64,000 nt of DNA from an uncultured Nitrospirales bacterium (lineage in GTDB: Bacteria > Nitrospirota > Nitrospiria > Nitrospirales > UBA8639), in NCBI GenBank assembly GCA_958295805.1, contig OY282373.1, positions 2,203,001 through 2,267,000 of the forward strand. The letters run 5' to 3'. Positions 39,463 through 62,730 of this stretch are shown here, in pieces. The notes under the pieces were generated by a model. That model was not told the origin of the DNA. It did no database searches and worked only from the letters and a program-made list of their open reading frames with translations. Position 1 is the stretch's first letter; each line of letters opens with the position of its first letter. Position numbers and translations under genes: made by a program.

Positions 39463-39475
39463 CAGCGTGGCGTTG

Positions 39476-42237: not shown

Positions 42238-43362
42238 TCATGGCACTTTGGCCAGCCACCCGTGCGGAGTCTGTTTCCGGCACAAGCTGCGCAGTTCGGC
42301 GGCCACGCGGTCGTACCAGTCGGCGCTCCGAAAGTGGTCCCCGCGCCGTCTTGCTCCCTCGCAGAGCCGCCGGTACAACTCGGGCTCGTCCAGCAACCGC
42401 TTGATCGCGGACTCGACCTCTGCTGCCGAACGGGGTTCCACCAGCAGCCCGCTCTCCTCGTGTTCGACCAGCTCGGAAACGCCTCCCCACCTGGCGGCGA
42501 CGACGGGAAGGCCGCACTGGAAGGCTTCGAGGATAGCGCCGGGGTAGCCCTCGCTCCGGTAGTAGCTGGGATACACCAGCAGGTCGTGTTCACTGAGGAC
42601 CCCTGGTATTTCCGCCGGGTCCAGGACGCCGCCGTAGGTCGCCCTGGGATGGTCCTCGAACAAGGAGAAGTCCGTGTCGGACATGCCGGGGCCGAAGACG
42701 TTGAGATGACAACTCTCCGGCAGGCGGCGGCACGCTTCGAGGGCTTCGGCCAGCCCCTTGTCCATGTCCAAACGAGCGACGAAAATCAGCTTTTCCACCC
42801 TGTCGCGCCCGGTCCGGGCGAGCGCCTCTATGCCTCTCGTATTCGGGAACCACTTGAAGTTGTCCCGGTCGCCGAAGCTGCGGCGCAGGTACTGCGTCTC
42901 CACGTACACCAGCGAAGAGCGCATATAGGTCCGATCGGCCAGCCACCGCGCCACCGTGCCATATCCCAAGTAATCCGCCATCATGTTGCCCCCGGTGATG
43001 CGCACCACAAAGGGCCTGCGCGTCATCTTGCAGACGGCCCATAGGAACGATGCCAGGCTCAGCGCCGAATAGGGCGCGATGATGAGGAACACGATGTCGG
43101 AGCGCCATATCTTCCTTGCGGCTCCCCAGGCTACTCTCAGGAACCTCGCCAGACGATTGGCCCTGATTTTCCAGGCGGACAGATTGGTCACGCCCCCCGA
43201 CGTGTCAATGACGTCCACCTCGAATCCACGCGCCCCCAATTCCTGCACCTGCTCGTCGGCCATCACCTTGTTGCCCCCGACCACGTTGGTATCGGACGCC
43301 CCGGTCTTCTGTATCGGAGCGATGAGCAGGATGCTGGGTGCTCGGCGCTCTTTCCCGGTCAA
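42238..43362 (-). CDS. GT4 family glycosyltransferase
   Basis: A 374-residue GT-B enzyme starting from TTG at 43362, which overlaps the wzx stop (TTGA). Motifs are SILLIAPIQKTGASDTNVVGG, KLIFVARLDMDKGLAEAL, YGGVLDPAEIPGVLSEHDLLV and EAFQCGLPVVAARWGGVSE. It is close to the GT4 at 29403 and related to the one at 20654. The order wzx, GT4, ligase, sulfotransferase suggests one operon. Confidence 0.86.
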   Translation of the reverse strand: MTGKERRAPSILLIAPIQKTGASDTNVVGGNKVMADEQVQELGARGFEVDVIDTSGGVTNLSAWKIRANRLARFLRVAWGAARKIWRSDIVFLIIAPYSALSLASFLWAVCKMTRRPFVVRITGGNMMADYLGYGTVARWLADRTYMRSSLVYVETQYLRRSFGDRDNFKWFPNTRGIEALARTGRDRVEKLIFVARLDMDKGLAEALEACRRLPESCHLNVFGPGMSDTDFSLFEDHPRATYGGVLDPAEIPGVLSEHDLLVYPSYYRSEGYPGAILEAFQCGLPVVAARWGGVSELVEHEESGLLVEPRSAAEVESAIKRLLDEPELYRRLCEGARRRGDHFRSADWYDRVAAELRSLCRKQTPHGWLAKVP

Positions 43363-44528
43363 CGTGATGCCTGCTCTTTCTGGAGTTGAGTACAGGCGGC
43401 GGAGCTACCCCTGGTCCAGCCGGACAGCGCGGACCGCCCTGCGGTCCACAGGAAGCTCGCGTCGCTGCGCCGCGGCAGCCAGACCGCGAGCAGACCCGTT
43501 CCAGTCGTTCTGTGGAAAACGATGGAGAGGAACGAACATCCGCACATCATGCCGATGGTCATGCCCCACGCCGCCGCCTCGACGCCTAGTCTCGGGTAGA
43601 GCAGGAGCAGCGCGTCGCCCACCGAGTTGGAGACCAGCATGAACCCCAGCATGAGCGCGCTCGCGGCTGCAAACAGCCCAATTTCGCCCTCGCTGGCGAG
43701 CAATCCCAGGATGACGACGCCGAAGTGAGGTTCGACGGCGTGGCCGAGCCGCGCGGCATGGTATTTCAAGCCATAGCCGAGAACGCGGCTGATGTTCAAG
43801 CGGTCCGGCAGTTCGAAGGCCAGCCCGTCATGCCGCCACAGGTACTGCAGGCAGGCGGCTATCATGACGCCATGCCCAGCGGCAAAGGCGATGATGGCGC
43901 CGTCCACCCCAAGCCCCAGGCTCCGGACGAGGACCAGGAGCGTGAGCACGTTCGCCGCGATGCGGAGCATGGAAAAGACTGCCAAGCGCCTGAAGCGCCG
44001 CAGCGCGACGAGTTGGTGGTCAAGCGCGATGGAGATGGCCGTGAAGGGGATCAGCGCAAGCGACAGCAGGAACGTATGGGTCTCTGCCTTTTGAAAGAAG
44101 GCGAGGCCGCTGTATATCAGCGGGACCGCCAGCGCGGCGGCCAGCCCTCCGCCGGCGAAGCAAATGATCAGGGCTGAGGACACGCCTTGCGAGACGCTCA
44201 TCTGCCGCACCGCCACGAAATACTGCGCGCCCTGTTGTGCGCCGGGCGTGAGGAGCACACCAAGCAGAGTCCCGAACGCGATGCAGACGGCGTAGGCACC
44301 CCTTCCTTCGGGAAGCAGCATGTAGGCGAGCAGACCCTGTATCAGCAGGGTCAGACCCGCCATGCCGACCAGGGTCGCAAACATGACGGACACGTCCTGC
44401 CCGCCGGTTGTGGCCGGCGATTCCGACGCATCTGTCGTTGCCGGCTTCGATTGGAGCATGACGCGGCTTGGTGAACCGGACGCCGGACTTCGAGCCAAGC
44501 GGCGCTTGCCAATGGGTTCAGCGTTCAT
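43359..44528 (-). CDS. Wzx-type polysaccharide flippase
   Basis: A 389-residue membrane protein with about 10-12 helices, somewhat short for the family. It starts MNAEPIGKRRLARSPASGS, then has a Ser/Thr/Ala linker and TGGQDVSVMFATLVGMAGL as the first helix. The frame is open further upstream, but that part holds a decayed transposase. The same leader (MNSEPIGKRRMARSPASGS) begins the unrelated leucine-rich-repeat ligase at 61103, so a shared 5' segment has been recombined onto two different genes. The stop overlaps the GT4 start. Confidence 0.82.
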   Translation of the reverse strand: MNAEPIGKRRLARSPASGSPSRVMLQSKPATTDASESPATTGGQDVSVMFATLVGMAGLTLLIQGLLAYMLLPEGRGAYAVCIAFGTLLGVLLTPGAQQGAQYFVAVRQMSVSQGVSSALIICFAGGGLAAALAVPLIYSGLAFFQKAETHTFLLSLALIPFTAISIALDHQLVALRRFRRLAVFSMLRIAANVLTLLVLVRSLGLGVDGAIIAFAAGHGVMIAACLQYLWRHDGLAFELPDRLNISRVLGYGLKYHAARLGHAVEPHFGVVILGLLASEGEIGLFAAASALMLGFMLVSNSVGDALLLLYPRLGVEAAAWGMTIGMMCGCSFLSIVFHRTTGTGLLAVWLPRRSDASFLWTAGRSALSGWTRGSSAACTQLQKEQASR

Positions 44529-45297
44529 TGATCTCTTTTCAATGACGTCCTTAACTTCAAGAATGCCCTGAATATCGGGGATGTCCCGTTCGCTGTTGAA
44601 CTTGGAGTTGGCGAGTTCCTGTGAGGTGGATTCTAAGCGGTCTTGTGGGGCTGGTGCAAGCTCTCGGATCAGTTGTACCAGTTGTCCAAGGCGAGGATGA
44701 ACCGGCCACGTCGCGGACGCCGCGGAGGCGCCGGAAGCGGTGCTCGGCATTGAGCAACGCGGCGCTGACCCATCGCCGGACAGCCCCTGCTTGACCAGTT
44801 CCGCCAGCAGGGCGCGGGCTACGGGGCCGTTCTCCGTGGACCCTCGGCGAAGTCCCAACATCGGGCTTGGCTTCCCGGCCTGCGGCTGCCATGCTTCGCC
44901 ATGGTGGCTTCTCCTTCGTTGGTTCACACCCCTGTCCTACCACGGGACAGGTGAAGGAGTCGTCACCTCTCTCAGATCAAGTTCAACGGTCTATGGGATG
45001 TCCCCAGGAATTTGCCAGTCTCATCCATGGTGCGGTACAGTCGGGAGTTGACATTCTGGACGATGGTTTCTGTTTTCGTCCGGAATCGGAACAGAAGGAT
45101 TTGGCCGTCGCGGAATACGGGAACACCATCGTGACACTGGATTTCGTCTTCAACGAGGTTGATGAACGGCTGGGGATACGGGACGTCGTACACAGACCAG
45201 CCCACTGGTGGAATCACCAGGAACGCTCTTTCTCCCGATTCACATTTTCGTCGCAATCTATAGAGGGTTGGGTGCTGGAGTTGGCGCAGGACACGTG
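44529..45297. other. Region with IS256-like transposase remnant and unassigned ORF
   Basis: On the minus strand, 44800-44930 reads LGLRRGSTENGPVARALLAELVKQGL, resembling the GSTEN...LL..LV.RGL stretch of IS256/Mutator-type transposases; the rest is frameshifted. From about 45352 to 44972 (minus) a 126-codon ORF includes [19 protein letters not shown] and DGVPVFRDGQILLFRFR; it reads like real protein but belongs to no family I recognise and overlaps the next gene's start. Confidence 0.4.
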
Positions 45298-46278
45298 ATG
45301 AATCGTCGAAACCGAGTGCTGGTGACCGGGGGGGCAGGATTTCTCGGGTCACATCTGTGCGAACGGCTGCTTGCGGAGGATTGCGAAGTCCTCTGCGTCG
45401 ATAATTACTTCACGGGGTCACGAGACAACGTCACCGCCATGTTGTCGAATCCGCGTTTCGAGGACGTCAGACACGACATCACGTTTCCGCTCTACGTTGA
45501 GGTGGACCAGATCTACAATCTAGGCTGCCCGGCTTCGCCGACTCACTATCAATTCGATCCCGTGCAGACCACCAAAGTCAACGTGCATGGCGCGATCAAT
45601 ATGCTGGGGCTCGCAAAGCGGGTGCGAGCGTCCATTCTCCAGGCATCAACCAGCGAAGTGTACGGCGATTCCCATGTGCATCCGCAAACGGAGGACTATT
45701 GGGGCAACGTCAACCCAACCGGGCCGCGCGCATGCTACGACGAGGGCAAGCGTTGCGCCGAGACGTTGTTCTTCGACTACCGACGCCAGCACGGTATGCC
45801 GATCAAGATCGCGCGGATATTCAATACCTACGGACCGCGCATGTTGGTTGGTGATGGCCGCGTCGTGTCCACCTTCGTGGTGCATGCCCTGCGCGGCGAG
45901 CCACTCACGGTTTACGGTGATGGCGATCAAACCCGTTCCTTCTGCTACGTAGACGACATGATTGATGGCTTGGTGAAGTTGATGAACACACCCCACGAAG
46001 TCACCGGGCCGATCAATCTTGGCCATACGAGGGAGATCACCATTCTGGAACTCGCAGGCATGATCATTCGTCTGACCGGCTCGAAATCGGGCATCATCCA
46101 TAAGGAGTTGCCGAAAGACGACCCGCGGCGTCGGCAACCCGACGTGACGAAGGCCAAGGACGTTCTCGGCTGGGCGCCTTCTACGCCGTTGGAAACGGGA
46201 ATCGAGCAGACGATCGGTTTTTTCGATCGTCTGCTGAATACGGAGCCTATCTCTTCCCGCTCATCTGGTGACGGATGA
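45298..46278 (+). CDS. UDP-glucuronate decarboxylase (UDP-xylose synthase type)
   Basis: A 326-residue extended short-chain dehydrogenase. NAD binding is [38 protein letters not shown] is characteristic of UXS enzymes. Catalysis is by STSEVYGD with YDEGK (YxxxK). [13 protein letters not shown] and the C-terminal [16 protein letters not shown] complete the family pattern. It converts UDP-glucuronate to UDP-xylose, a donor for the island's glycan. ATG at 45298 is chosen because the conserved domain begins eight residues later. A UDP-glucose dehydrogenase is not in the window. Confidence 0.88.
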
Positions 46279-46697: not shown

Positions 46698-48704
46698 ATG
46701 TGCGGCATAGCCGGTTTTCTAGGAGGCGGACGTTTCAATCCGGAAGAGGCGTCATCGACCGCACGCGGGATGGCGGACGCCGTTGCGCATCGAGGTCCCG
46801 ACGATGCCGGGGTCTGGATCGACCGTGAGGCCGAGACCGCACTGGCCTACCGGCGTCTGGCCGTCATCGATCCGTCGCCGGCCGGCCGCCAGCCGATGCG
46901 GTCCGCCTCGGGGCGGAGCGTCATCGTCTTCAATGGCGAGATCTACAACCACCTTGACCTCAGGCGGCAGATCGAGGCCCAGCGCCCGGACGCCTTGTCC
47001 TGGAGGGGGCATTCCGATACCGAAACGCTGCTAGCCGCCATTGAGTGTTGGGGGTTGGAGGAGGCGTTGCAGGCGGCCACCGGCATGTTCGCCTTCGCGT
47101 TCTGGGACCGGGAGAAAAGGACGCTCTGTCTGGCCCGCGACCGGATGGGCGAAAAACCGCTCTATTACGGCTGGCAGAATGGCGTACTCCTGTTCGGGTC
47201 CGAGCTGAAGGCGCTCGCGGCGCATCCTGCATTCGAGGGAGACGTCGACAGGGACGCGCTCACCTTGCTCCTGCGCCACGGCTACATTGCATCCCCCTGG
47301 TCGATCTACAAGGGAGTGCGAAAGCTGCCGGCGGGCACGTACCTCAAGGTGGCGGCCGGCGCTTCACGAGAGCAGCGTGCCGGCGAACTGCCGGAACCGC
47401 GGCGTTACTGGTCGTTGCGGGACGTGGTGGCGGCAGGCCTGGCGCAGCCGTTCGAGGGTACACCCGAAGACGCGGTGGACGCCCTGCACGGCCTGTTGCT
47501 CCGAGCAGTGCGCGGGCAGATGGCCGCGGACGTCCCGCTCGGCGCCTTCCTCTCCGGCGGGACCGACTCCTCCACCGTCGTCGCATTGATGCAAGCTCAA
47601 TCCATGCGGCCGGTACGAACGTTCGCCATCGGATTCGACGAATCCGAATACAACGAAGCGGAGCACGCCAAGGCCGTGGCCGGCCACCTCCGGACCGAAC
47701 ACACCGAACTGTACGTATCGCCACAGGATGCGCTCGACGTCATTCCCCGCTTGCCTGACCTCTTCGACGAACCTTTTGCCGACTCCTCGCAGATCCCGAC
47801 CTTCCTGGTTGCCGGGATGGCCCGCCGGCACGTCACCGTCGCCCTGTCCGGAGACGGCGGCGACGAGCTGTTCGGCGGTTATGGGTACTACGTCTCGACG
47901 CCCCAGAGATGGCGCCTGCTGTCCAGTGTGCCGTTGCCGTTGCGCCGATTCGTCGCCGACACGATCATGGCCGCTCAGGCGCATGGAGCGGACAGTTTGC
48001 TGGACCGTGTCCTTAGGAAGCTGCCAATGGACCGCGTGCGACACCGGCTACAAGCCAAAGCGCACACGCTGGCGCTGTTGGCCAGTTGCCGGACGCAGGA
48101 AGAACTCCACTGGCTCTCTCTCTCTCACTGGCGGAATCCGTCCTCGGTCGTGCGCGGAGCGTACGAACCCGAAACCGCCCTGAACGAATCTGCAAACTGG
48201 CCCGATGCGCTCGAATTCGCAGAGCGATTGATGGCGGTTGACAGCCTGAGTTACCTTCCGGATGACATTCTCGTCAAGGTGGACAGGGCGGCGATGGGCG
48301 TGAGTCTCGAGACGCGTGCGCCATTCCTGGACCGTCACGTCATGGAGTTCGTCTGGCGGTTGCCGCTGTCTTTCAGGATCCGTAACGCTCGGAGCAAGTG
48401 GGTGTTGCGGCAGGTGCTCTACAAGTACGTGCCGATGCGGCTCGTCGAACGGCCGAAGGCGGGATTCGTCATACCGCTCGCCTCGTGGCTGCGTGGTCCG
48501 CTCAAGGATTGGGCGGAGACATTGTTGGACGCCGGACGGCTGCGGGCAGAAGGTTTTTTCGACCCGCGGCCGGTCCGCCGGAAGTGGCATGAATTTCTGA
48601 ATGCGCATGAGCAATGCGAGCCCCACCTCTGGAACATTCTGATGTTTCAGGCGTGGCTGGACCGCAGTCGACGGGAACTCTGGACCAAGCATACCGCGCC
48701 ATGA
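46698..48704 (+). CDS. asnB: Asparagine synthase (glutamine-hydrolysing) family amidotransferase
   Basis: A 668-residue class II amidotransferase with the N-terminal nucleophile Cys2 in MCGIAGFLGGG. The glutaminase domain has AHRGPDDAGVW and FNGEIYNH. The synthetase domain has the PP-loop AFLSGGTDSSTVVAL near residue 285, then LSGDGGDELFGGYGYY and LPDDILVKVDRAAMGVSLETRAPFLD. In polysaccharide loci such enzymes often amidate uronic acids or other sugar acids instead of making free asparagine (inference). It is transcribed away from the converging wzx at 48791. Confidence 0.88.
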   Translation: MCGIAGFLGGGRFNPEEASSTARGMADAVAHRGPDDAGVWIDREAETALAYRRLAVIDPSPAGRQPMRSASGRSVIVFNGEIYNHLDLRRQIEAQRPDALSWRGHSDTETLLAAIECWGLEEALQAATGMFAFAFWDREKRTLCLARDRMGEKPLYYGWQNGVLLFGSELKALAAHPAFEGDVDRDALTLLLRHGYIASPWSIYKGVRKLPAGTYLKVAAGASREQRAGELPEPRRYWSLRDVVAAGLAQPFEGTPEDAVDALHGLLLRAVRGQMAADVPLGAFLSGGTDSSTVVALMQAQSMRPVRTFAIGFDESEYNEAEHAKAVAGHLRTEHTELYVSPQDALDVIPRLPDLFDEPFADSSQIPTFLVAGMARRHVTVALSGDGGDELFGGYGYYVSTPQRWRLLSSVPLPLRRFVADTIMAAQAHGADSLLDRVLRKLPMDRVRHRLQAKAHTLALLASCRTQEELHWLSLSHWRNPSSVVRGAYEPETALNESANWPDALEFAERLMAVDSLSYLPDDILVKVDRAAMGVSLETRAPFLDRHVMEFVWRLPLSFRIRNARSKWVLRQVLYKYVPMRLVERPKAGFVIPLASWLRGPLKDWAETLLDAGRLRAEGFFDPRPVRRKWHEFLNAHEQCEPHLWNILMFQAWLDRSRRELWTKHTAP

Positions 48705-50185: not shown

Positions 50186-51136
50186 TCACTTCAATGCCTG
50201 GATAAGGACACCGCTGGTGGTCAGATCCGTTTGGGAAATAGGCCGGAATCGCGGTGCGACCTGCTTCTCGTTGATCTTCGTCGGCAGTGGAAGCCGTTGC
50301 TCAACGACGACGTTAAACCCGGCCAACTGCATGAACCGCAGGTGTTGCGACACAGGGAGGCGGTTGATTGATGGATGCGATCGCCTGCCGCGGATCAGCC
50401 ACCAAGTGAGATCAGAATAAGTCCAATGCCCATTCCAATCCTTGGCGGTGTTGTGGCAACGAAAATCGATTTGGTGCGACATGAGACCGCCTGGCTTGAG
50501 CCATTGGTACATCCCGTCGTAGCAATGGCCCAAATCATCGACGTGTTCGAGCACCGCCTGGGAAAAGATCATATCTATCGAGCTGGATTCGATCACCTCA
50601 AGGTCATGCCACGGCACCTTGTAGTGGATGCACGAATCGTCCGCGCCAGCCGAGGCGACCGACTTCCGTAGGCGGGCGATCCTGTTTGTTTCGAGCGCGC
50701 GGTTGAACCGTTCGGCTGTCAGCACTTGGTCGGGAAACTGGTAAGAGTCGAGATTCGGCTTGACCTCGGGAAACTCTTCTTCGCCGGGGATTTGCTCTCG
50801 GCTGCGGAACAGATCGACTAACTGGTCAAATATCGCCAAGTTTCTCTCGGTGGTGCCTCCGTACTCGACAACATCCAAGGCGCAATAACTTTCTGCCCCT
50901 GAAATGAGTGCCGCAAGGCCGGTGCCTATCGAACTACCCGGGACCAGCTCTGCAACCACCCGCGGGTCGGTTTGCAGGCCGTTCTCGTGTACCGTGACCA
51001 AATGGCGCAGCCAAACTGAATAGCAGTACCTGGCCGAATGCGTGCCCGTTTCAGACATTGGTTTTGCAAACACCGCATAGAGTCCTGGGATAAATGTCAA
51101 GATTCCTTTGATCAACATTTTGAGGTTGGCTTGCAT
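50186..51136 (-). CDS. SAM-dependent methyltransferase
   Basis: A 316-residue protein. The SAM-site region is unusual (VAELVPGSSIGTGLAALISGAESYCALDVVEY near residues 60-95). The conserved IDMIFSQAVLEHVDDLGHCYDGMYQWLKPGGLMSHQIDF follows near residue 190. The C-terminus carries HLRFMQLAGFNVVVEQR. It is probably a sugar methyltransferase. It is flanked by a duplicated wzx start on its 5' side and the intact wzx on its 3' side. Its first codons overlap the end of the wzx fragment. Confidence 0.72.
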   Translation of the reverse strand: MQANLKMLIKGILTFIPGLYAVFAKPMSETGTHSARYCYSVWLRHLVTVHENGLQTDPRVVAELVPGSSIGTGLAALISGAESYCALDVVEYGGTTERNLAIFDQLVDLFRSREQIPGEEEFPEVKPNLDSYQFPDQVLTAERFNRALETNRIARLRKSVASAGADDSCIHYKVPWHDLEVIESSSIDMIFSQAVLEHVDDLGHCYDGMYQWLKPGGLMSHQIDFRCHNTAKDWNGHWTYSDLTWWLIRGRRSHPSINRLPVSQHLRFMQLAGFNVVVEQRLPLPTKINEKQVAPRFRPISQTDLTTSGVLIQALK

Positions 51137-51277: not shown

Positions 51278-52519
51278 CTAACGCCGCGCCAGCTCTTCGA
51301 ACAGCGCGACATAGGCGTCGGCGGCCTTCTCGGGGGAGAAGTCGGCGGCGCGTGCCCGAAGTGCTTCCTCCGTCGGCCTCTCGCCGCGCAGCGTGGCGAC
51401 CAGCGCCAGCGCCAGCGCGGGCGCGTCGCCCACCGGCGGCAGGTCGCCCCAACCCCCGAGGATTTCGCGCGGACCGCAGGGCGTGTCGGTGCTGACCACC
51501 GGCGTGCCACAGGCCAGCGCCTCAAGGATCACCCCCGGCAGACCCTCCGAGCGTGAGGAGAGCGCGAGCAGCCCCGCCCGCCGCATGTAGCGGTACGGGT
51601 TCTCGTCGAAGTCCACGAAGCCGAGAGCTCCTTCCACGCCATGGCCCCGCGCCAGGGACTTGAGCCTTGCCCGGTAGGGCGCCGAGAGCTTGCCGAGGAT
51701 GACCAGCCGCGAGTCCACCTCGCGCCGCACCAGCCCGAACGCCTCCACCAGGGTGGGGTAGTCCTTCGAGGGCGCCTCGCGCCCGACGCTCAGGACCACC
51801 GGCGGCGCGCCGTCCGCGAACCAGGGGTGTGTGACTGCGTCTTGCGCCAGCCGCCGTATGCTGTCGGCGGGAATGGGGTTGTAGATGGTGCGAACGCGCT
51901 TGGCGTCCACCGCCAACGATCGCCGCACGGACTCGGCCACGCCCCTGGACACCGCCACCACCGCGTCGGCCAGCGGATAGAGCGTCCGGGAAGCGGCCAG
52001 CCATTCCGGCGCATAGTAGTCCTCGGGGACGTTGCGCACGGTGACCACCACCGGAACGGCCCGCTCCGTCAACTCCGCGGCGCAGACCGCGGCGGCGTCG
52101 GCGCCCGGCAGCGCCGATACCAGCACATGAGGACGCGCCTCGCGAACGTACCGCGCAATCATGGTGGCATACGCATAAACACGGTGACGCCTTCGAACCG
52201 GCAGGTGGAGACCCTTCCGGCCAAGCACCAGCCAACTCCGTGCGACCCCGAAGGGATTGACGGTCATCGCTTCCACGTGGACTCCCGACCGCTGCATCGC
52301 CCGCAGGAGATTCCTGTCGGTGCCGGGAATCCGCGCCCTCCAGACACGTATCCCGCCAGGGACCGCGGCCCGATAGTCTCCCGCCAACCGGGGGATCACC
52401 AGGTCCGCCCGGTGCCCTCGCTCAATGAGCGCCGCCGCCAAGTTGAGCGTGGTGCGCTCTGCCCCGCCGCCGTCCAGTCCGGTCAGCAGGAAGCCGATAT
52501 GGAGCTTGTCCGAACTCAC
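51278..52519 (-). CDS. GT4 family glycosyltransferase, tandem copy C
   Basis: A 413-residue GT-B enzyme starting from GTG at 52519, which overlaps the previous stop as GTGA. The N-terminal loop is IGFLLTGLDGGGAERTTLNLAAALIERGH, the middle VLSVGREAPSKDYPTLVEAF, and the donor-side block EALACGTPVVSTDTPCGPREIL with its E-x7-E-type spacing. Related enzymes transfer hexoses in capsule and O-antigen synthesis. It is strongly similar to its two neighbours along its whole length, with the most divergence in the N-terminal acceptor half (e.g. RVWRARIPGTDRNLL versus RVYRARIPGIERKFL). Confidence 0.88.
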   Translation of the reverse strand: MSSDKLHIGFLLTGLDGGGAERTTLNLAAALIERGHRADLVIPRLAGDYRAAVPGGIRVWRARIPGTDRNLLRAMQRSGVHVEAMTVNPFGVARSWLVLGRKGLHLPVRRRHRVYAYATMIARYVREARPHVLVSALPGADAAAVCAAELTERAVPVVVTVRNVPEDYYAPEWLAASRTLYPLADAVVAVSRGVAESVRRSLAVDAKRVRTIYNPIPADSIRRLAQDAVTHPWFADGAPPVVLSVGREAPSKDYPTLVEAFGLVRREVDSRLVILGKLSAPYRARLKSLARGHGVEGALGFVDFDENPYRYMRRAGLLALSSRSEGLPGVILEALACGTPVVSTDTPCGPREILGGWGDLPPVGDAPALALALVATLRGERPTEEALRARAADFSPEKAADAYVALFEELARR

Positions 52520-53775
52520 CGCGCGCGTGCCCTCACCAGCTTCTCGAACAGCGCGACATAGGCGTCGGTGGCCTTCTCCATGGAAAAGTCGGCGGCGCGT
52601 GCCCGAAGTGCCTCCTCCGCCGGTCGCGCGCCGCGCAGCGTCGCGACCAGCGCCCGCGCCAGCGCCGGCGCGTCGCCCACCGGCGGCAGGTCGCCCCAGC
52701 CCCCGAGGATCTCGCGTGGACCGTAGGGCGCGTCGGTGCTGACCACCGGCGTGCCGCAGGCCAACGCCTCGAGGATCACCATCGGCAGTCCCTCCCAACG
52801 CGAGGAGAGCGCGAGCAGCCCCGCGCGTCTCATGTAGCGGTACGGATTCTCGTCGAAGCCCACGAAGCCGAGGTCTCCCTCCACGCCAAGGCTCCGCGCC
52901 AGAGACCGCAGCCTCGCCCGGTAGGGCGCCGAGAGCTTGCCGAGGATGACCAGCCGCGAGTCCACCTCGCGGCGCGCCAGCCCGAACGCCTCCACCAGGG
53001 TGGGGTGGTCCTTCTGCGGCGCCTCGCGCCCGACGCTCAGGACCACCGGCGGCTCGCCGTCCGCGAACCAGGGGTGCGTGATTTCCTCTTGCGCCAGCCT
53101 TCGTATGCTGTCGGCGGGAATGGGGCTGTGGATGGTGCGAACGCGCTCGGCGCCCACCCCCAACGATCGCCGCACGGACTCGGCCACGCCCTTGGACACC
53201 GCCACCACCGCGTCGGCCAGCGGATAGAGTGTCCTGGATGCTTCCAGCCATTCCGGCGTATAGTCCGCGGTGACGTTGTTCCACACCGTGGTCACCACCG
53301 GAACGGCCCGGTCCATCAACTCCGCGGCGCAGACCGCGATGGTGTTGGGGCCCGGCAGCCCCGAGATCAGCACATGGGGGCGTACTTCGCGAGTGTACTG
53401 CGCTAGAAAATGGGCGCAGGGATAGATGGAGCGCATGCCGCTTCCGCGTATCACGGGTATCGCGGGGTACCTGCGCGCGAGCACCAGCCAGGTTCGCGCG
53501 GCCTTGATGGGATTGACGGTCATCGCCTCCACTTGGACTCCCGCCCGTTGCACCGCCCGCAGGAACTTCCTCTCGATGCCGGGAATCCGCGCCCGATAGA
53601 CGCGCATCCCGAGAGGGATCGCGGCCCGGTAGTCTCCCTCGAGCTTGGGGATCACCAAGTCCGCCCGGTGCCCGCGCGCGATGAGCGCCGCCGCCAGGTT
53701 GAGCATGACGCGCTCCGCCCCGCCGCCGTGCAGGCCGGTCAGCAGGAAGCCGATGTGGAGCTTGTTCGAACTCAC
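52516..53775 (-). CDS. GT4 family glycosyltransferase, tandem copy B
   Basis: A 419-residue paralogue of the genes on both sides. It starts at GTG 53775 (SSNKLHIGFLLTGLHGGGAERVMLNL), which overlaps the stop of copy A as GTGA, and ends in the GTGA of copy C. It has SVGREAPQKDHPTLVEAF, GFDENPYRYMRRAGLLALSS and EALACGTPVVSTDAPYGPREIL. A long alternative frame through this area is a shifted-frame artefact of the repeated sequence. Confidence 0.88.
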   Translation of the reverse strand: MSSNKLHIGFLLTGLHGGGAERVMLNLAAALIARGHRADLVIPKLEGDYRAAIPLGMRVYRARIPGIERKFLRAVQRAGVQVEAMTVNPIKAARTWLVLARRYPAIPVIRGSGMRSIYPCAHFLAQYTREVRPHVLISGLPGPNTIAVCAAELMDRAVPVVTTVWNNVTADYTPEWLEASRTLYPLADAVVAVSKGVAESVRRSLGVGAERVRTIHSPIPADSIRRLAQEEITHPWFADGEPPVVLSVGREAPQKDHPTLVEAFGLARREVDSRLVILGKLSAPYRARLRSLARSLGVEGDLGFVGFDENPYRYMRRAGLLALSSRWEGLPMVILEALACGTPVVSTDAPYGPREILGGWGDLPPVGDAPALARALVATLRGARPAEEALRARAADFSMEKATDAYVALFEKLVRARAR

Positions 53776-55019
53776 CGAGCGCGCCCCCTCGCCAGCTTCT
53801 CGAACAGCGCGACATAGGCGTCGGCGGCCTTCTCGAGGGAAAAGTCGGCGGCGCGCGATCGCAGCGCCTCCTCCGCCGGTCGCGCGCCCCGCAGCGTCGC
53901 GACCAGCGCCCGCGCCAGCGCGGGCGCGTCCCCCACCGGCGGCAGGTCGCCCCAACGCCCAAGGATCTCGCGCGGACCGTAGGGCGCGTCGGTGCTGACC
54001 ACCGGCGTACCGCATGCCAGCGCCTCGAGAATCACCGCCGGCAGACCCTCCCAGCGCGAGGAGAGCGCGAGCAGCCCCGCCCGCCGCATGTAGCGGTACG
54101 GGTTCTCGTCAAAGTCCACGAAGCCGAGGTCTTCCTCCACGCCATGGCCCCGCGCCAGAGACTTGAGCCTCGCCCGGTAGGGCGCCGAGAACTTGCCGAG
54201 GATGACCAGCCGCGCATCCGCCTCGCGCCGCGCCCGCCCGAAGGCCTCCACTAGGGTGGGGTAGTCCTTCTGGGGCGACTCGCGCCCGACGCTCAGGACC
54301 ACCGGCGGCTCGCCGGCCGCGAACCAGGGGTGCGCCACCTCCGCCTCCGCCAGCCGACGTATCCTGCCGGCGGACACGCCGACGTAGATGGTGCGAACAC
54401 GCTCGGCGTCCACCGCCAATGATCGGTGCATGGATTCCGCCACGCCCCTGGACACCGCCACCACCGCGTCGGCCAGTGGATAGAGCGTCCGGGACGCGGC
54501 CAGCCACTCCGGCGGATAGTCCGCGGGGGCGTTGTGTACCGTGACCACCACTGGAACGCCCCGGTCCGCTAACTCCGCAGCGCAGACAGCGGCGGCGTCG
54601 GCGCTCGGCAGTGCTGACACCAACACATGAGGACGTGCCTCGCTCAGGTAACGGTTCAGAATGTGGACGGAAGCATGTAGAGAGCGCTTGCGCCGGACGC
54701 GGACGCCGGGGTGCTTGCGGCCAAGAACCAGTCCGATCCATGCGACCGCGAACGGGTTCACGCCAAGCGCGGTCACTGCTGCGCCCGACCGTTGGACTTC
54801 CCGCAGGAATGTCCTGTCGGTATGCGGAAGCCGCCCCCGATACAGTCGCACGCCACGGGGAATCGCGGCCAGGTAGTCTCCCGCGAAGCAGGGGATCACC
54901 AGGTCCGCCCGGTGGCCGCGCTCAATGAGCCACTGCGCCAGATGCAAAGTGTGACGCTCTGCTCCGCCCCCGTGCAGGCTGGGCAATACGAACCCGACGT
55001 GGAGTCTGCCGTCACCCAC
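53772..55019 (-). CDS. GT4 family glycosyltransferase, tandem copy A
   Basis: A 415-residue GT-B enzyme and the first of three tandem paralogues. GTG at 55019 lies 3 bp after the ligase stop. Motifs are VGFVLPSLHGGGAERHTLHL, VLSVGRESPQKDYPTLVEAF, LGFVDFDENPYRYMRRAG and EALACGTPVVSTDAPYGPREIL. The sugar specificity cannot be read from sequence. Tight coupling of ligase and three GTs suggests one transcript. Confidence 0.88.
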   Translation of the reverse strand: MGDGRLHVGFVLPSLHGGGAERHTLHLAQWLIERGHRADLVIPCFAGDYLAAIPRGVRLYRGRLPHTDRTFLREVQRSGAAVTALGVNPFAVAWIGLVLGRKHPGVRVRRKRSLHASVHILNRYLSEARPHVLVSALPSADAAAVCAAELADRGVPVVVTVHNAPADYPPEWLAASRTLYPLADAVVAVSRGVAESMHRSLAVDAERVRTIYVGVSAGRIRRLAEAEVAHPWFAAGEPPVVLSVGRESPQKDYPTLVEAFGRARREADARLVILGKFSAPYRARLKSLARGHGVEEDLGFVDFDENPYRYMRRAGLLALSSRWEGLPAVILEALACGTPVVSTDAPYGPREILGRWGDLPPVGDAPALARALVATLRGARPAEEALRSRAADFSLEKAADAYVALFEKLARGRAR

Positions 55020-55022
55020 CGG

Positions 55023-58000
55023 TCACGCCTCCACAACGTGTCGGTCGCCGTCGTCGTATGCCGCCCCTGTCGCGACGCACAACCCGGCGAGAAACATGAA
55101 CGCACCGATGCCGAGCAGATGCTGGAAGGTCATGCAGTACAGGGCGATGACGATGACCCCGGCTACGGTTGCATCCCGGGCAAGCGACTTGGGCGCACCC
55201 CACTGCGCACGCAGCAGAAGGACAAGGGCGGACACGAACAACAGCAGAGGGACGATGCCCGCCTCGCCCAGCAAGGTCAGGTACAGGTTGTGGGGGCCCA
55301 GCGGCCTGCCGTGATGTCCGATGGGGGCGCCCTCCATGTATTCCAACGCCCCCAGGCCGTGACCAAAGACAGGCGCCTCCATGGCCTTCTCGAAACCCAG
55401 TCTCCAGAGCAGCGGTCTGTCCATCTCCAGGACAGTGCAGATGAGGCTGTCATCAATGTCGTGGCTGCGCAGACGTTGCAGTTCCTGCGGCATGCAGCCG
55501 CGGAAGTCGTTACCGGCGACGGCCAGGGAGAGATGCTTGATTCTGGCCAATGCGGGCGGGATGGAACCGGTGAGTCGGTTGTCGGCCAGCCACAGTTGCC
55601 TGAGATTCAACAGATTGGCGAGTTCGGGCGGGATGGGGCCGGTCAGGCGATTGCCGTTGAGCGACAGCATGGTCAGACGGGTCAGGGTCCCCAGTTCCGG
55701 TGGAATGGGGCCGGTGAGTCGGTTGCCGTTGAGCCGCAGCCTAAAGAGATGGTTCAGTTCGCTCAGTTCCGGGGGAATCCGCCCCGTCAGGTTCATGTCT
55801 TGCAAGTCCAGAGTGCCGACGCGACCAGATCGCGTGACGGTCACGCCCTGCCAGGACGAGACGGGCCGAGCATAGCTCCAGTTCAGCACCGCGTCGCCGG
55901 CCAGGATGTCGCGCAGGCGCATCAGACGCGCGCCGTCTTCGAACAGGTCCGGTTTGGTCCAGGGCGACGACTCGCAGAGCAGATCGGCGGAATCCAGATC
56001 GTTGTGCCGTACCTGCACCGTACGCGACGCGGTCGGGATGCAGCCGGCGAATGCGTTGCCGCCCAGACGGAGTACCACAAGACGATTCAACCAGCCAAGT
56101 TCCTCGGGGATTCTTCCGTGCAGACGATTGTTCTCGAGCCGCAGTTCTTCCAGACGCCCCAGGTTGCTGAGCTGCGGATTGACGTGGCCCTGCAGGAGGT
56201 TGTCCTCCAACGCGAGTACGCGCAGGTTGGTCAAGGTGGTGAATTGCCGCGTAAAACCGGTGAGTTCGTTGTTCCCGAGACGCAGCAAAACGAGTCCCTG
56301 CAACGTGCCCAGCTCTTCCGGGATCGCGCCGGTCAGCGCATTGTTCTCCAGATTCAGGGTCCGAAGCCCGGACAGGGCGCCCAGTTCCGGCGGGATGGAT
56401 CCTCCCAGCCGATTGTGGCCAAGCCGCAGTACGGCAAGGGCGTCCAGAGCCGACAACTCCGCGGGAATCCGCCCGTTCAGGCCCGTATGTGACAGATCCA
56501 GGGCGATCACGCGCAGCCCTTCCACGGCCTCGCCGGCGATGGCGGGAAAGCCGACGGTAACGCCCCGCCAATAGCCGATGGGGACCGCGTCGCTCCAGTT
56601 CAGTTCGACATCGCCGGCCAGCACGTCCCGAGCGTCCAGCAACGTGGCGCAGTCGTCATTCAGGCGCGACAGTGCTGCGGGGAGGGATTGACAGAGCCGG
56701 TTCCGGTCGAGAACCCTGCTGCGACCGCGATCCGGCGCCGGCAGTTCGCCAGCCTCGTCGTCATCATCCAGGCGCAACACGACCAGCTCGGGTAGCGCGG
56801 CCACCGAGGGAGGTGCTGGGCCGATCAGACTGTTCCCGTGCAGCCACAAGTCGGTAAGCCTCAACAGCTTGCCCAGTTCCGGCGGTACGGAACCGGCTAG
56901 GAGGTTGCCGTCCAACGCCAGCACGCGCAGATCGACGAGGTTGCCGAGATCGGGCGGAATGTCGCCGGCAAGCCGGTTGCGGCCCAGGCGCAGCGAGACG
57001 AGTCCGGCAAGCTGCCCCAACTCCGCGGGGATGCGTCCGTTCAACCCCATTTGGGTCAGGTCCAGCGCCGTCACGCGGCCCTGCGAACGGTCCATGACGA
57101 CGCCCAGCCAGTCATCGACGGGCACCTCCTCGCGCCAGTTAAGCGGCGCATCTCCCGCGAGGGCGTCCTTCACCCTCAGCAACAGGGCGCAATCGGCGGG
57201 CAGGCCCGGATCGATTTTCCTCGGCCGGCAGAAAACCGGCGTGTCGAGGTCATGGTCGGCAACCTCGTGGAGCGCCGGCGGAAAGGGCCGATTCAGGTCG
57301 TTGCCGGCGAGGCGCAGGAAACGGAGATTGCCCAGTCCTTCCAGTTCCGGAGGTACGGAGCCAGTGAGCCGGTTGTGACTCAGGTTCAGCGCGACGAGGT
57401 CGGTCAATTTTCCCAGCTCCGCGAACAGGCGCCCGTTCAGTCCCGCGCGCGGCAATTCCAGGGCAGTCACGCGCTTCGGCGCACCGTCGACGCTGACGCC
57501 CTGCCAGAACTCGATGGGTATGTCCTCGCTCCAGTTGAGCGGCGCGTCGCCGGCCAGGACGTCCCGGCTCGCCAGCAACAGGGCGCATTCGGCTTGCAGA
57601 TCGGAACCGGCGCCGGAGGAGGGTCGACAGAACAGGCGCCTTCCCGCATCCGGACGATCCCGGTTCGTGCGGTCCGCTGCCTCTGCCGTTTCCGCGTCGC
57701 CGAGCGGCCGACGACGGCTCGGGTCGTCGAGAGCAATGTTGACGTTGGTGATCCCAAATAGACGCCGAGGGTAGGGGCGGTCCAGATCGTTGACGGAGAG
57801 GCGCAGGAGGGTCAGCTTCTTCAGCCCCTGGAGTTCCGGCGGCACGGGGCCGCTCAGGCGGTTGTGCTTCAGCCACAATTCCTTGAGATGCGACAGTTTC
57901 CCCAGTTCCGGCGGAATCGGGCCGCTCAAGGCGTTGAAGGAGAGCACCAGGCGCTCCAGGTTGGTCAAATTCCCCAGTTCGGGAGGCACCGGACCGGTGA

Positions 58001-61000
58001 GCCGGTTGCGGTTCAGAGCAAGCGACACGAGTTGGCTCAATCGTCCCAGCGCCGGCGGGATGCGCCCGTTCAGACCTGAACTTGCAAGTTCGAGCCTCGT
58101 CACGCGGCCCAGCGAGCCGCCGATGGTGACGCCCTGCCACAACTTGATGGGGAGATGCTCGCTCCAGTTGAGCCGCGCTTCACCGGCGAGGATGTCCCTG
58201 CTCGCCAGCAGGAGCGCACAATCTGCGCGCAAACCGGGATTGTCGGCAGGAGCAGCGGGGCAGGTCGCTTCCCCGCCGGCTGCTGAACGCAGTTCGGGCG
58301 GGAGGGAACCGGTCAGGCGGTTGCCGCTCAGCCAGAGTTCCCTGATGCTCGACAGCTTCGCCAGTTCCGGTGGGATGGGGCCGGACAGGTCGTTGGCGGC
58401 AAGCCCGAGCATTTCCAGGTCGGTCAGTTTCCCCAGCTCGGGCGGTATGGCGCCGGCCAACACGTTGCCGTCAAGCACCAGGGACCGCAAGCCGGCGAGA
58501 TGCCCCAACGCCGCGGGAACGCGCCCATTCAGTCTCATTTTGGGCAGCTCCAGCGCAATGATACGACCTTCCGGACCGCCCACGGTCACGCCCTGCCATT
58601 CGCCGATCGGCAAGGCCACGCTCCAGTTGAGCTGCGCGTTGCCGGCCAGCGTGTCTTTCATCGCCAATAGCCGCGCACAGTCGTCAAGCAACGCGGAGCT
58701 GATTCGCGACGATGGCAGACAAACCGCGGAACTGAGCAAGTCGTGTTCCGGGACCGCCAGCAGTTCCAGCGGAACGGGGCCGGTCAGGGCGTTGCGGCCC
58801 AGGAACAGGCCGCGCAGGTTGACGAGTTGCCCCAACTCCGGCGGAATCGAACCGGTGAGCTGATTGGCGGACAGGTTCAACCACACGAGGCCATCCAGGC
58901 TGCCGAGCTCCGGCGGAATGCGCCCGGTGAGTTCCCTCGCCTCCAGATTGAGCACGACCACACGTCTCGGCGAACCGGACGCGGACATACCTTGCCATTC
59001 GTCGATCGGCAAGGTCACGCTCCAGTTGAGCTCGGCTTCGCCGGCCAACGTCTCCTTTAGCGCCAGGAGCAACGTGCAGTCGTCGAACAACAGCGGACTG
59101 GGAGGCAATGGCGGCCGGCAAAACACGAGATGACTGAGATCGTGTTCGAGAATATCGGACACTGCCGGCGACACAGGGCCGGTCAAGCGATTCTCTCTCA
59201 GCCACAAGGACTCGAGCCGACGGAGTTGTCCCAGTTCTGCGGGGACGGTGCCGGTCAGGGCGTTGCGGTCCAGGCTCAATGCACGCAAAGCGACAAGGCG
59301 CCCCAACTCGGGCGGAACCGGACCGGTGAGACGATTGGCGGCCAAGTTCAAATTGACGAGGCCATCCAGCCTGCCGAGTTCCGGGGGAATGCGTCCGTTC
59401 AGCCCTTTCGAGTCCAGAATGAGCTCGGTCACACGTTCCTGGGGACCGCCCACGGTCACGCCTTGCCACAAGCCGATGGGGATCGCTTGGTGCCAGTTGA
59501 GCGACGCGTCGCCGGCCAGCGTGTCCTTCACTTCCAGCAGCACCGTGCAGTCGTCGAACAGCGCCGGGCTCGTTGACGACAGCGGCAGGCAGAGCCGCGT
59601 ACCGGCCAGATCGTGGTTGGCGACGGCGGTGAGTTCGGGAGGAATAGAGTCGAAATCGTTGCTCGAGAGACGCAGGACGGACAGGTCGAGCCCTCCGAGA
59701 GCGGCCGGGACTGGGCCGGTCAAGCGGTTGTGTTTCAGCCACAGCTCCTCGAGGTTATCGAGCTTCGCCAGTTCCGGCGGGATGCCCCCGGTCAAGGTGT
59801 TGTAGCTCAGAACCAGACGCTCGAGGCTCGCCAGATTGCCCAACTCGGGCGGAATGTGGCCGGTGAGCCGATTTCGTTGAAGGGACAGCGAAACGAGGCG
59901 ATCCAGGCGGCCCAGATCCGAGGGGATACGGCCGTTCAATCCCAGTCCCGCCAAGTCCAGCCGGGTGACGCGTCCCTCCGGGCCCTCCACTGTCACGCCC
60001 TGCCAGTGGTTTACGTGCACGGTGCTACTCCAGTTCAAGACAACGTCCCCGGCCAGGATGTCCCTCGTTGCCAGCAGGACGGCGCAGTCCGCGCCGGGAT
60101 CGTCGGTCGGCGAAGGGTCGCAGAACAGGCTCCCCTCATACACAAAGTCGGGAAGGAGCCGCAATCTCGACCACTCGGAAAAACCGCCGATGAAACCCAC
60201 AACGCCGACGAGTACTGCAATCCCGATCAATCCTGTGGCGGCCAAAGCGAAGACGAAGGTCCTCGGTTTGCTGCGGACGTTGATCAACAGGAACACGACC
60301 GCCAGCGCACCGAGTACGACCAACGCTGTTCGGGACATCGTCGCCAAGCTGGCGGCGACGCCGACGGTCAGGCCCAGCCAGCCGAGCGTGCGCGGCCCGC
60401 CGTTGGTGAGCAACGCCGCGGCCAACCCCACCGTCATGCAAGTGGCCAAGCTGGCGTCGTTGGGATCGACGAAAGCGCCGGTCCGGCGAAATGGAAGCCG
60501 GTAAGGCGGCAGGATGCCGAGATCGCGCAGGACCGGCGAAGCGAGAATGATGGCGCAACCCGAAATCAGGATGACCAGCACCCCCTGCAACAAGCGCTCG
60601 GCCCCGGTTCGTTCCAGCACCGCGCGGCCACCGACCGCGGCCGCCACGAGTACGCCGAAATGGAGGACGTGATACCTCAGGCTCCCGGCCGTATCCGGTT
60701 CCCGGATCGCTTCGACGCCCAGCACGGCGGCGCCGATCGCCAGATAGGACGCCACCGCGGCGAACAGCAACATGCCGGGCGTTCCGCCAAGCGTCCTCCG
60801 GATGGGGGCGAGAGAGCCGGACTTCCGCCAGGCCGTCACGCACCGGGCTCCAACCAGGCCCAACAAGATGACACTGCAGGCCATGGTAGCCCGTGCAATG
60901 CTCACCTCGACCTGCGGCAGCCCCCAAAGATGCAGAGACCTCAGGTTGGTCAGCGCGATGACCGCCAGTGTCCAGAACGCGACTGCGATCAGCATGGTCT

Positions 61001-61103
61001 GGAGCGACTCGCTTCGGCACAGCAGCGAGGCCGGACGTCGGAACAGTGAACCGGACGCTGGACTTCGAGCCATGCGGCGTTTGCCAATGGGTTCAGAGTT
61101 CAT
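55023..61103 (-). CDS. O-antigen ligase/polymerase-type protein with giant leucine-rich-repeat ectodomain
   Basis: A 2026-residue protein. Residues 1-310 hold about nine membrane helices, similar to the ligase at 40480 (LWGLPQVEVSIARATMAC, LGGTPGMLLFA). Residues 1896-2026 are the C-terminal ligase part (WRLGFEKAMEAPVFGHGLG, HNLYLTLLGEAG, last helices). Between them about 1570 residues (322-1890) form nine super-repeats. Each begins with a cap like CALLLASRDILAGEARLNW with W.GVTV, resembling plant LRRNT_2, then has 3-7 plant-type repeats of pattern LxxNxLTGxIPPELGxLxx, about 41 in all. The ectodomain should lie in the periplasm or protrude. Start MNSEPIGKRR at 61103 shares its leader with the wzx at 44528. 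Confidence 0.85.
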   Translation of the reverse strand: MNSEPIGKRRMARSPASGSLFRRPASLLCRSESLQTMLIAVAFWTLAVIALTNLRSLHLWGLPQVEVSIARATMACSVILLGLVGARCVTAWRKSGSLAPIRRTLGGTPGMLLFAAVASYLAIGAAVLGVEAIREPDTAGSLRYHVLHFGVLVAAAVGGRAVLERTGAERLLQGVLVILISGCAIILASPVLRDLGILPPYRLPFRRTGAFVDPNDASLATCMTVGLAAALLTNGGPRTLGWLGLTVGVAASLATMSRTALVVLGALAVVFLLINVRSKPRTFVFALAATGLIGIAVLVGVVGFIGGFSEWSRLRLLPDFVYEGSLFCDPSPTDDPGADCAVLLATRDILAGDVVLNWSSTVHVNHWQGVTVEGPEGRVTRLDLAGLGLNGRIPSDLGRLDRLVSLSLQRNRLTGHIPPELGNLASLERLVLSYNTLTGGIPPELAKLDNLEELWLKHNRLTGPVPAALGGLDLSVLRLSSNDFDSIPPELTAVANHDLAGTRLCLPLSSTSPALFDDCTVLLEVKDTLAGDASLNWHQAIPIGLWQGVTVGGPQERVTELILDSKGLNGRIPPELGRLDGLVNLNLAANRLTGPVPPELGRLVALRALSLDRNALTGTVPAELGQLRRLESLWLRENRLTGPVSPAVSDILEHDLSHLVFCRPPLPPSPLLFDDCTLLLALKETLAGEAELNWSVTLPIDEWQGMSASGSPRRVVVLNLEARELTGRIPPELGSLDGLVWLNLSANQLTGSIPPELGQLVNLRGLFLGRNALTGPVPLELLAVPEHDLLSSAVCLPSSRISSALLDDCARLLAMKDTLAGNAQLNWSVALPIGEWQGVTVGGPEGRIIALELPKMRLNGRVPAALGHLAGLRSLVLDGNVLAGAIPPELGKLTDLEMLGLAANDLSGPIPPELAKLSSIRELWLSGNRLTGSLPPELRSAAGGEATCPAAPADNPGLRADCALLLASRDILAGEARLNWSEHLPIKLWQGVTIGGSLGRVTRLELASSGLNGRIPPALGRLSQLVSLALNRNRLTGPVPPELGNLTNLERLVLSFNALSGPIPPELGKLSHLKELWLKHNRLSGPVPPELQGLKKLTLLRLSVNDLDRPYPRRLFGITNVNIALDDPSRRRPLGDAETAEAADRTNRDRPDAGRRLFCRPSSGAGSDLQAECALLLASRDVLAGDAPLNWSEDIPIEFWQGVSVDGAPKRVTALELPRAGLNGRLFAELGKLTDLVALNLSHNRLTGSVPPELEGLGNLRFLRLAGNDLNRPFPPALHEVADHDLDTPVFCRPRKIDPGLPADCALLLRVKDALAGDAPLNWREEVPVDDWLGVVMDRSQGRVTALDLTQMGLNGRIPAELGQLAGLVSLRLGRNRLAGDIPPDLGNLVDLRVLALDGNLLAGSVPPELGKLLRLTDLWLHGNSLIGPAPPSVAALPELVVLRLDDDDEAGELPAPDRGRSRVLDRNRLCQSLPAALSRLNDDCATLLDARDVLAGDVELNWSDAVPIGYWRGVTVGFPAIAGEAVEGLRVIALDLSHTGLNGRIPAELSALDALAVLRLGHNRLGGSIPPELGALSGLRTLNLENNALTGAIPEELGTLQGLVLLRLGNNELTGFTRQFTTLTNLRVLALEDNLLQGHVNPQLSNLGRLEELRLENNRLHGRIPEELGWLNRLVVLRLGGNAFAGCIPTASRTVQVRHNDLDSADLLCESSPWTKPDLFEDGARLMRLRDILAGDAVLNWSYARPVSSWQGVTVTRSGRVGTLDLQDMNLTGRIPPELSELNHLFRLRLNGNRLTGPIPPELGTLTRLTMLSLNGNRLTGPIPPELANLLNLRQLWLADNRLTGSIPPALARIKHLSLAVAGNDFRGCMPQELQRLRSHDIDDSLICTVLEMDRPLLWRLGFEKAMEAPVFGHGLGALEYMEGAPIGHHGRPLGPHNLYLTLLGEAGIVPLLLFVSALVLLLRAQWGAPKSLARDATVAGVIVIALYCMTFQHLLGIGAFMFLAGLCVATGAAYDDGDRHVVEA
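55434..60140 (-). repeat. Nine-unit leucine-rich super-repeat region
   Basis: Codons 322-1890 of the ligase. The cap motif (D/E-x-LAG-x-x-x-LNW ... W-x-GV) recurs nine times. Unit ends often read HDL...C.P.....DC, placing a Cys pair at each junction that may form disulfides. Units differ in the number of 24-residue repeats (3 to 7), so gain and loss of repeats is evident. Confidence 0.85.
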
Positions 61104-61857: not shown

Positions 61858-62730
61858 GTGACTCCCCGCGTAGATATGAGAATATTGAAAAGGCTGGTCC
61901 GCACTATCCTCCCGGCGCGGATGCACAGTGAGCTCCGCCGGGTGGCCCATACCCTGCGGCTCAACCGGGTGCCTGTGATGGCGGCGGACGTTGCCCCGCT
62001 TCCCATGGCGGCGGAGATTTCATTCCCGGATATGCTCCGGGGCGACGGCATAGCCGACGGCTGGGAAAAGGCGAAAACCTCGATCAATGAAATCTTCGAA
62101 GACGTGCCGGGGAGTCACGCCATCGACCCCGACAGCCGCCGGGCAATCTACCACCTGATTCGCCGTTTGCAACCGCGCTCCGTTCTGGAAATCGGCACCA
62201 ACCGCGGCGCATCCACCTTACACGCCGCCATGGCAATGCGGGAGTACCGGAATGTCGGCCACCCGCCCCGTCTGGTCACCGTGGATTTGTTCGACGTCAA
62301 CAATCCTGCCACCGCCGAGGCGAAACGATACCGCATCTCCACTCCGCCCCGGGAGATGCTGGCCCGGCTGGACTGTGCCGACGTGGTCGAATTTTCCATC
62401 GCCCGGTCCACGGACTATCTGACCGGGCGCGAAACGGAGTTCGATTTCATCATCCTGGACCACGCCCCCGCCGCGGACGTCGCTTACCGGGACATCGTGC
62501 TGGCCATCAGGGCGCTGCGCCCGAGCGGACAACTGTTGATTCATTCCTACTTTCCGGGCAGGAACCCCCTGCGGCCTGGGGAGCGCGTTAACTCTGACTC
62601 CTACCTCGCCGTGCGCCGTCTGCGCCGGGAAGGTGCCCGCCTAGTCGCCTTGCCCCTGGGCACACTGCCCTGGCCGACGGAACCCGGCGGGTCGAACCTC
62701 ACCAGTCTGGCCCTCTTGGCGAAGGAATGA
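61858..62730 (+). CDS. SAM-dependent O-methyltransferase-like protein
   Basis: A 290-residue protein of the CmcI/Methyltransf_24 type. Motif I is SVLEIGTNRGASTLHAAMAM near residue 100, the acidic strand LVTVDLFDVNNP follows, and FDFIILDHAPAADVAYRDIV comes near residue 200. LAIRALRPSGQLLIHSYFPG closes the domain. The start is GTG at 61858 or ATG at 61876; neither has a strong ribosome-binding site. Its last about 110 bp recur as a decayed copy at 16303-16413 within the long direct repeat. Confidence 0.75.
   Translation: MTPRVDMRILKRLVRTILPARMHSELRRVAHTLRLNRVPVMAADVAPLPMAAEISFPDMLRGDGIADGWEKAKTSINEIFEDVPGSHAIDPDSRRAIYHLIRRLQPRSVLEIGTNRGASTLHAAMAMREYRNVGHPPRLVTVDLFDVNNPATAEAKRYRISTPPREMLARLDCADVVEFSIARSTDYLTGRETEFDFIILDHAPAADVAYRDIVLAIRALRPSGQLLIHSYFPGRNPLRPGERVNSDSYLAVRRLRREGARLVALPLGTLPWPTEPGGSNLTSLALLAKE

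Follow-up and report, generated by a model that had tools for sequence, protein, structure and literature searches.

What would a membrane enzyme of glycan transfer do with a long array of plant-type leucine-rich repeats (LRRs)? This question is raised by P0001, a gene in the window, by which we mean the whole 64,000-nucleotide stretch of an uncultured Nitrospirales genome that was analysed here (Table 1). In Pfam searches the product matches LRR_1 (2.2e-79), LRR_8 (3.7e-56) and, at residues 1894-1957, Wzy_C (3.7e-07). Hydrophobic segments are confined to both ends of the protein (residues 34-302 and 1948-2014), with a polar stretch of ~1,590 residues between them, and the LRR insert (residues ~323-1893) makes up 77% of the whole. 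The initial annotation had placed Wzy_C ligase ends and an LRR middle in one frame, which is confirmed by Pfam, by hydrophobicity and by the open 2026-residue frame. The Wzy_C domain (PF04932) is split by the insert; its score of 30.5 bits fell just below the cut-off of 31.7 when proteins were scanned, whereas in the genome scan it reached 36.3 bits and passed the cut-off, with 40.4 bits for the paralogue P0002 and 36.0 for a relative carrying two LRR units. Misassembly, which could have produced such a protein, is ruled out, as the window genome is a single contig and divergent long copies lie in other chromosomes. Searches of other genomes found ten other long copies (2003-2388 aa), giving 11 over several phylum-level lineages, so the fusion is real, as had been proposed.

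Table 1. Coordinates of the LRR-ligase gene, its parts and the surrounding glycan genes within the window.
Feature	Coordinates	Strand	Remarks
P0001, LRR-ligase gene, 2026 aa	55023..61103	-	ORF, ATG start, zero internal stops
N-terminal ligase half, residues 1-322	60138..61103	-	nine predicted membrane helices; contains Arg258
Arg258 (SRT motif)	60330..60332	-	E. coli WaaL R215 position, by motif order and spacing
LRR unit 1, residues 323-501	59601..60137	-	
LRR unit 2, residues 502-658	59130..59600	-	
LRR unit 3, residues 659-791	58731..59129	-	
LRR unit 4, residues 792-944	58272..58730	-	
LRR unit 5, residues 945-1155	57639..58271	-	
LRR unit 6, residues 1156-1287	57243..57638	-	
LRR unit 7, residues 1288-1467	56703..57242	-	
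LRR unit 8, residues 1468-1706	55986..56702	-	
LRR unit 9, residues 1707-1893	55425..55985	-	includes Cys1870/Cys1889
C-terminal ligase half, residues 1894-2026 and stop	55023..55424	-	Arg1896, GxG, HN...E.G, three membrane helices
Arg1896 (R...W)	55416..55418	-	E. coli WaaL R288 position, by motif order and spacing
His1938 (HN)	55290..55292	-	E. coli WaaL H338 position, by motif order and spacing
GT4 glycosyltransferase	53772..55019	-	adjoins ligase
GT4 glycosyltransferase	52516..54015	-	
GT4 glycosyltransferase	51278..52561	-	
Methyltransferase	50186..51136	-	glycan locus
Asparagine-synthase-like gene	46698..48704	+	asnB type
NDP-sugar epimerase/dehydratase	45208..46278	+	
Wzx-type flippase (Polysacc_synt)	43359..44927	-	
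GT4 glycosyltransferase	42238..43362	-	
Paralogue P0002, 580 aa	40480..42222	-	same chassis; ~130-residue non-LRR loop at same site
PMT_2-like membrane glycosyltransferase	36376..39519	-	below cut-off
Methyltransferase	61858..62730	+	common to carriers at 81-91% DNA identity

When aligned with ordinary Wzy_C proteins of related genomes, both halves of P0001 join as one ligase, and the insert has the SR motif before it and the R...W / GxG / HN...E.G segment after it, which puts it between both catalytic-type arginines. The three residues at the positions of R215, R288 and H338, the key residues of E. coli WaaL (PMC3643930), are unchanged in all ten aligned long copies, and the first arginine is nearly invariant across an alignment of 32 sequences. 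That alignment, which includes distant Wzy_C proteins, was used for an AlphaFold model (mean pLDDT 74.9) of a two-unit relative (L031:15373-17709, 779 aa) that stands in for the nine-unit P0001; in a model from nine close sequences only, the membrane part was poor, and the distant Wzy_C proteins improved it. The top structural match of the modelled chassis is the cryo-EM structure of WaaL, 7TPG (Z 24.3, 365 of 403 residues). The model of this close relative and the retained Arg/Arg/His thus support the ligase identity given in the initial annotation, as a predicted WaaL-type GT-C fold with twelve membrane helices. Sequence cannot separate a ligase, a protein O-ligase and a polymerase. PglL/PilO-type O-oligosaccharyltransferases share the Wzy_C superfamily and the catalytic residues (PMC3643930); P0001 differs from them in its LRR insert and in giving no match to PglL_A (PF15864) at E<=0.01, and neither P0002 nor the two-unit form matched that profile at E<=1.

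Counted from the N-terminus, the loops on the cytoplasmic side are Lys/Arg-rich, those on the periplasmic side mostly are not, and the insert comes after helix nine. This positive-inside pattern, together with conserved cysteine pairs, supports the periplasmic placement proposed for the insert and rules out cytoplasmic LRRs. All 18 cap-type cysteines are kept in the ten aligned long copies, and C1870/C1889 are gained or lost together (both in six copies, neither in four), which is how disulfide partners behave.

The insert is built of nine units, 132-239 residues long, in each of which a cap with cysteines and a LAGD..LNW...W.GV motif come before plant-type LRRs that fit the consensus LxxLxLxxNxLTGxIPxxLGxL. 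The cap cysteines are spaced as C-x(11-13)-C in eight of the units, the ninth having one of the two. Under a strict pattern there are 29 repeats, under a relaxed one 34; the opening repeat of each unit, in which the Asn is usually substituted, raises the total to about 42, in line with the nine super-repeats and about 41 LRRs estimated at the outset. The description of the cap as LRRNT_2-like stands in part: the LRRNT_2 Pfam model found no match in P0001 at E<=0.01, but the modelled cap and LRRs align from the N-terminus with plant SERK/BAK1 ectodomains (2.1-2.2 A over ~160 residues). The best PDB sequence matches of the P0001 LRRs are also plant receptors, and Foldseek with the two-unit model gave only LRR proteins among the matches listed. 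By contrast, the idea of a single periplasmic solenoid has to be given up, since the array is made of nine separately capped short LRR domains.

The ligase is embedded in a glycan locus that contains two Wzy_C proteins, and the window genome has three further Wzy_C genes. Among the annotated ORFs, a set that leaves small frames aside, no pilin or comparable acceptor protein lies next to it. lpxC is present in seven of the eight genomes compared, namely the window genome and six other tested LRR-ligase genomes; the Dehalococcoidia genome, in which the non-LRR loop form is the sole form found, gave no lpxC match. The island has a GC content of 0.60-0.70, against 0.53-0.58 in the left flank, which holds housekeeping genes (dnaE, accA). 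The window and the two stretches to its right yielded no tRNA, and thus gave no sign of a tRNA-borne insertion site.

A contig scan recovered relatives in chromosomes labelled Gammaproteobacteria, Pseudomonadales, Vicinamibacterales, Candidatus Entotheonella and Dehalococcoidia; because it was built on just six short peptide patterns, its count of carriers is a minimum. The named carriers of the ten long copies beyond P0001 are Gammaproteobacteria, Pseudomonadales, Vicinamibacterales and Entotheonella, and one of these ten, added by a later search, has an open frame of 2185 aa. Those relatives of the window genome that were examined, at the level of order and class, lack the ligase. Between carriers, the ligase and the neighbouring glycan genes are mostly 85-92% identical in DNA, with lower values in the two Pseudomonadales and in the Dehalococcoidia. 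We gauged the relatedness of the genomes by RpoB, rRNA being found in four of the eight; RpoB of the carriers is 58-69% identical to that of the window genome in protein and 59-65% in DNA. The similarity of the locus in such distant genomes makes its transfer between phyla well supported, and a near-identical gene with its glycan neighbours in several phyla suggests that one surface-glycan toolkit was shared recently. Judging from their taxa, the carriers would be sponge symbionts. Whether unrelated bacteria display a common surface glycan is a question that this locus raises.

Among the loci fetched, the chassis comes in three forms: LRR proteins with nine units or longer (2003-2388 aa), two-unit LRR proteins (772-864 aa) and proteins with a non-LRR loop (529-580 aa). 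The non-LRR form, with a loop of ~130 residues, has three members, P0002 and one record each from Entotheonella and Dehalococcoidia, and in all three the SR arginine is absent; in P0002 the residue at the R215 position is replaced (SFT). The P0002 chassis is 65% identical to that of P0001 in the N half and 53% in the C half, and its N-terminus is closer to the LRR-type chassis than its own class is, which suggests recombination between loop forms. An Ig domain in the P0002 loop was considered and is unconfirmed (best Pfam E 0.21, zero PDB relatives). The two-unit form mostly retains unit 1, the unit 2 cap and, in several members, unit 9 repeats. A distant relative (34-37% identical), from a genome of the same class as the Vicinamibacterales record, has a short loop of ~30 residues, so the LRR insert is probably derived. 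As the same chassis carries nine-LRR, two-LRR, ~130-residue or short loops, the loop is an exchangeable module. Neither this loop-exchange family nor the fact that phyla share the locus had been noticed in the initial annotation.

How the array might serve the enzyme can be put as follows. An inner-membrane GT-C ligase carries nine cysteine-capped LRR domains in place of its large periplasmic loop; the neighbouring glycosyltransferases and Wzx would supply an undecaprenyl-pyrophosphate-linked glycan, which the ligase would transfer to a periplasmic acceptor; and the LRR array would bind and position either this acceptor, which may be a protein or some specific lipid A-core/glycolipid, or a partner of the enzyme. 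If the array positions acceptor or partner in this way, the type of loop would set the acceptor choice. We give about an even chance to this reading of a WaaL-type glycan ligase whose exchangeable periplasmic LRR loop selects or positions acceptor or partner, which draws on sequence and on the model. The LRRs might also act on something besides the acceptor, or as a scaffold only. We could speculate further that the ligase is gated by recognition, with the LRRs choosing the glycan recipient, and that the phyla of a host community share the locus and with it closely related surface glycans, but this extended version seems unlikely.

The choice of enzyme and the weight given to catalysis bear on this proposal. 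A Wzy-type polymerase, in which the LRRs hold or select repeat units and transfer falls to P0002 or to a ligase elsewhere, would fit the presence of Wzx beside the two Wzy_C proteins and the additional Wzy_C genes of the genome, as the Wzy_C profile matches both Wzy and WaaL proteins; however, the closest solved fold found is that of WaaL with its three key residues, which is not decisive, and we regard a polymerase as quite unlikely. Alternatively, the ligase fold could mainly hold a periplasmic LRR array for recognition or adhesion, with catalysis secondary. The sheer share of the protein taken by the insert agrees with such an anchor, as does LRR identity between copies as high as chassis identity; the constancy of the three catalytic-type residues, the position of the gene within a glycan locus and the dN/dS of the C half, the lowest in the protein (0.25-0.41), make it distinctly improbable. 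Between the window copy and its four closest copies, dS is about 0.15-0.24.

The fast evolution of the LRR region (dN/dS 0.46-0.68) and the presence of pseudogene-like fragments (L035, L053) would suit a hitch-hiking module, with LRR units that a permissive loop tolerates and that have no specific role. Nevertheless, the frame is open in eleven long copies across phyla, the cysteines are invariant, the LRR consensus is maintained, and each of the nine units has its homologue, in unchanged order, throughout the ten aligned copies at a per-unit identity of 58-89%; we therefore hold mere tolerance to be highly improbable. The same conserved order would be expected of a device for chain length or spacing, in which a rigid stack of nine or two units holds the glycan, growing or complete, or sets the distance for outer-membrane export and the number of units matters rather than a ligand, and the coexistence of nine-unit and two-unit size classes within the same genomes also speaks for it. 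Two long copies are extended by insertions of 24-212 residues, so length is not strictly fixed, and LRRs of this type serve in plant receptors generally as recognition modules; a spacer is thus very doubtful. Returning to the preferred reading, of a loop that selects or positions acceptor or partner, exposed strand positions of the LRRs vary only a little more than the remaining exposed sites (p=0.04), an enrichment that gives no strong sign of a diversifying, arms-race-like binding face. A further point against this reading is that the chassis, too, changes rapidly (dN/dS 0.51-0.85 in the N half).

In the literature searched we found no description of an O-antigen ligase with LRRs, as the initial annotation had supposed, and the six papers that mention both feature neither in title or abstract; this is weak evidence, most subscription journals lying outside the search. 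The LRR-ligase belongs to a known enzyme family, and its unusual LRR loop is the new feature. It resembles WaaL (PDB 7TPG) in chassis fold, twelve predicted helices, Arg/Arg/His and a periplasmic loop preceding the R288-type arginine, but the WaaL loop has a few tens of residues, whereas that of P0001 has ~1,590 and nine capped LRR domains. Sequence says little about which acceptor a member of the WaaL/PglL/Wzy superfamily uses, and one chassis with nine-LRR, two-LRR, other and short loops offers a ready-made set of domain swaps for the study of loop function.

With plant SERK/BAK1, ERL1, FLS2 and PGIP the protein shares the repeat consensus and the cysteine-bearing N-cap; unlike the plant LRR receptors, it is bacterial and bears nine short capped units serially in an enzyme loop, not on a kinase. 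The same plan of cap and plant-type LRR unit occurs in secreted bacterial LRR proteins, L112 (1604 aa), which is multi-unit, and L006, from a genus-mate; these differ from P0001 in having neither membrane chassis nor ligase halves, and in carrying other spacer domains between or after the units.

The SR arginine (at the position of E. coli WaaL R215, Arg258 in the LRR-ligase) is nearly invariant elsewhere but is absent from the non-LRR loop paralogues, which carry SFT or SYT instead. Since they lack this residue, these paralogues may catalyse a reaction different from that of the other forms. Among the long LRR-ligases, the copy at locus L032 has two added insertions, of 130 and 212 residues, and that at L057 has one of 152 residues; it is possible that these extra insertions are unit duplications.

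The GC-rich glycan island starts after accA and extends past the right edge of the window. Many of its genes are found again in chromosomes of other phyla, in shuffled order and with DNA identities of 70-94%. DNA resembling the gene of a 766-residue protein without a Pfam match occurs in several copies in a Dehalococcoidia genome.

A separate glycan locus in the same genome as the window contains a second LRR gene, directly upstream of a gene that appears Wzz-like by eye, and a nearby Wzy_C gene (441 aa).

Coordinates of the features discussed (L-numbers, fetched DNA stretches)
Feature	Coordinates	Remark
accA	window 14.9-15.9 kb	
Glycan island	window 16000-64000	
766-residue protein	window 34047-36344	
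Non-LRR loop paralogue	window 40480-42222	
Non-LRR loop paralogue	L056:1227-2813	
Non-LRR loop paralogue	L036:7971-9614	
Integrase-core/transposase-like gene	L068:3813-5114	~20 kb right of window end
LRR protein, 673 aa	L004:361-2382	G000:C1 (the genome's single contig) near 1,135 kb; LRR type differs from that of the LRR-ligase
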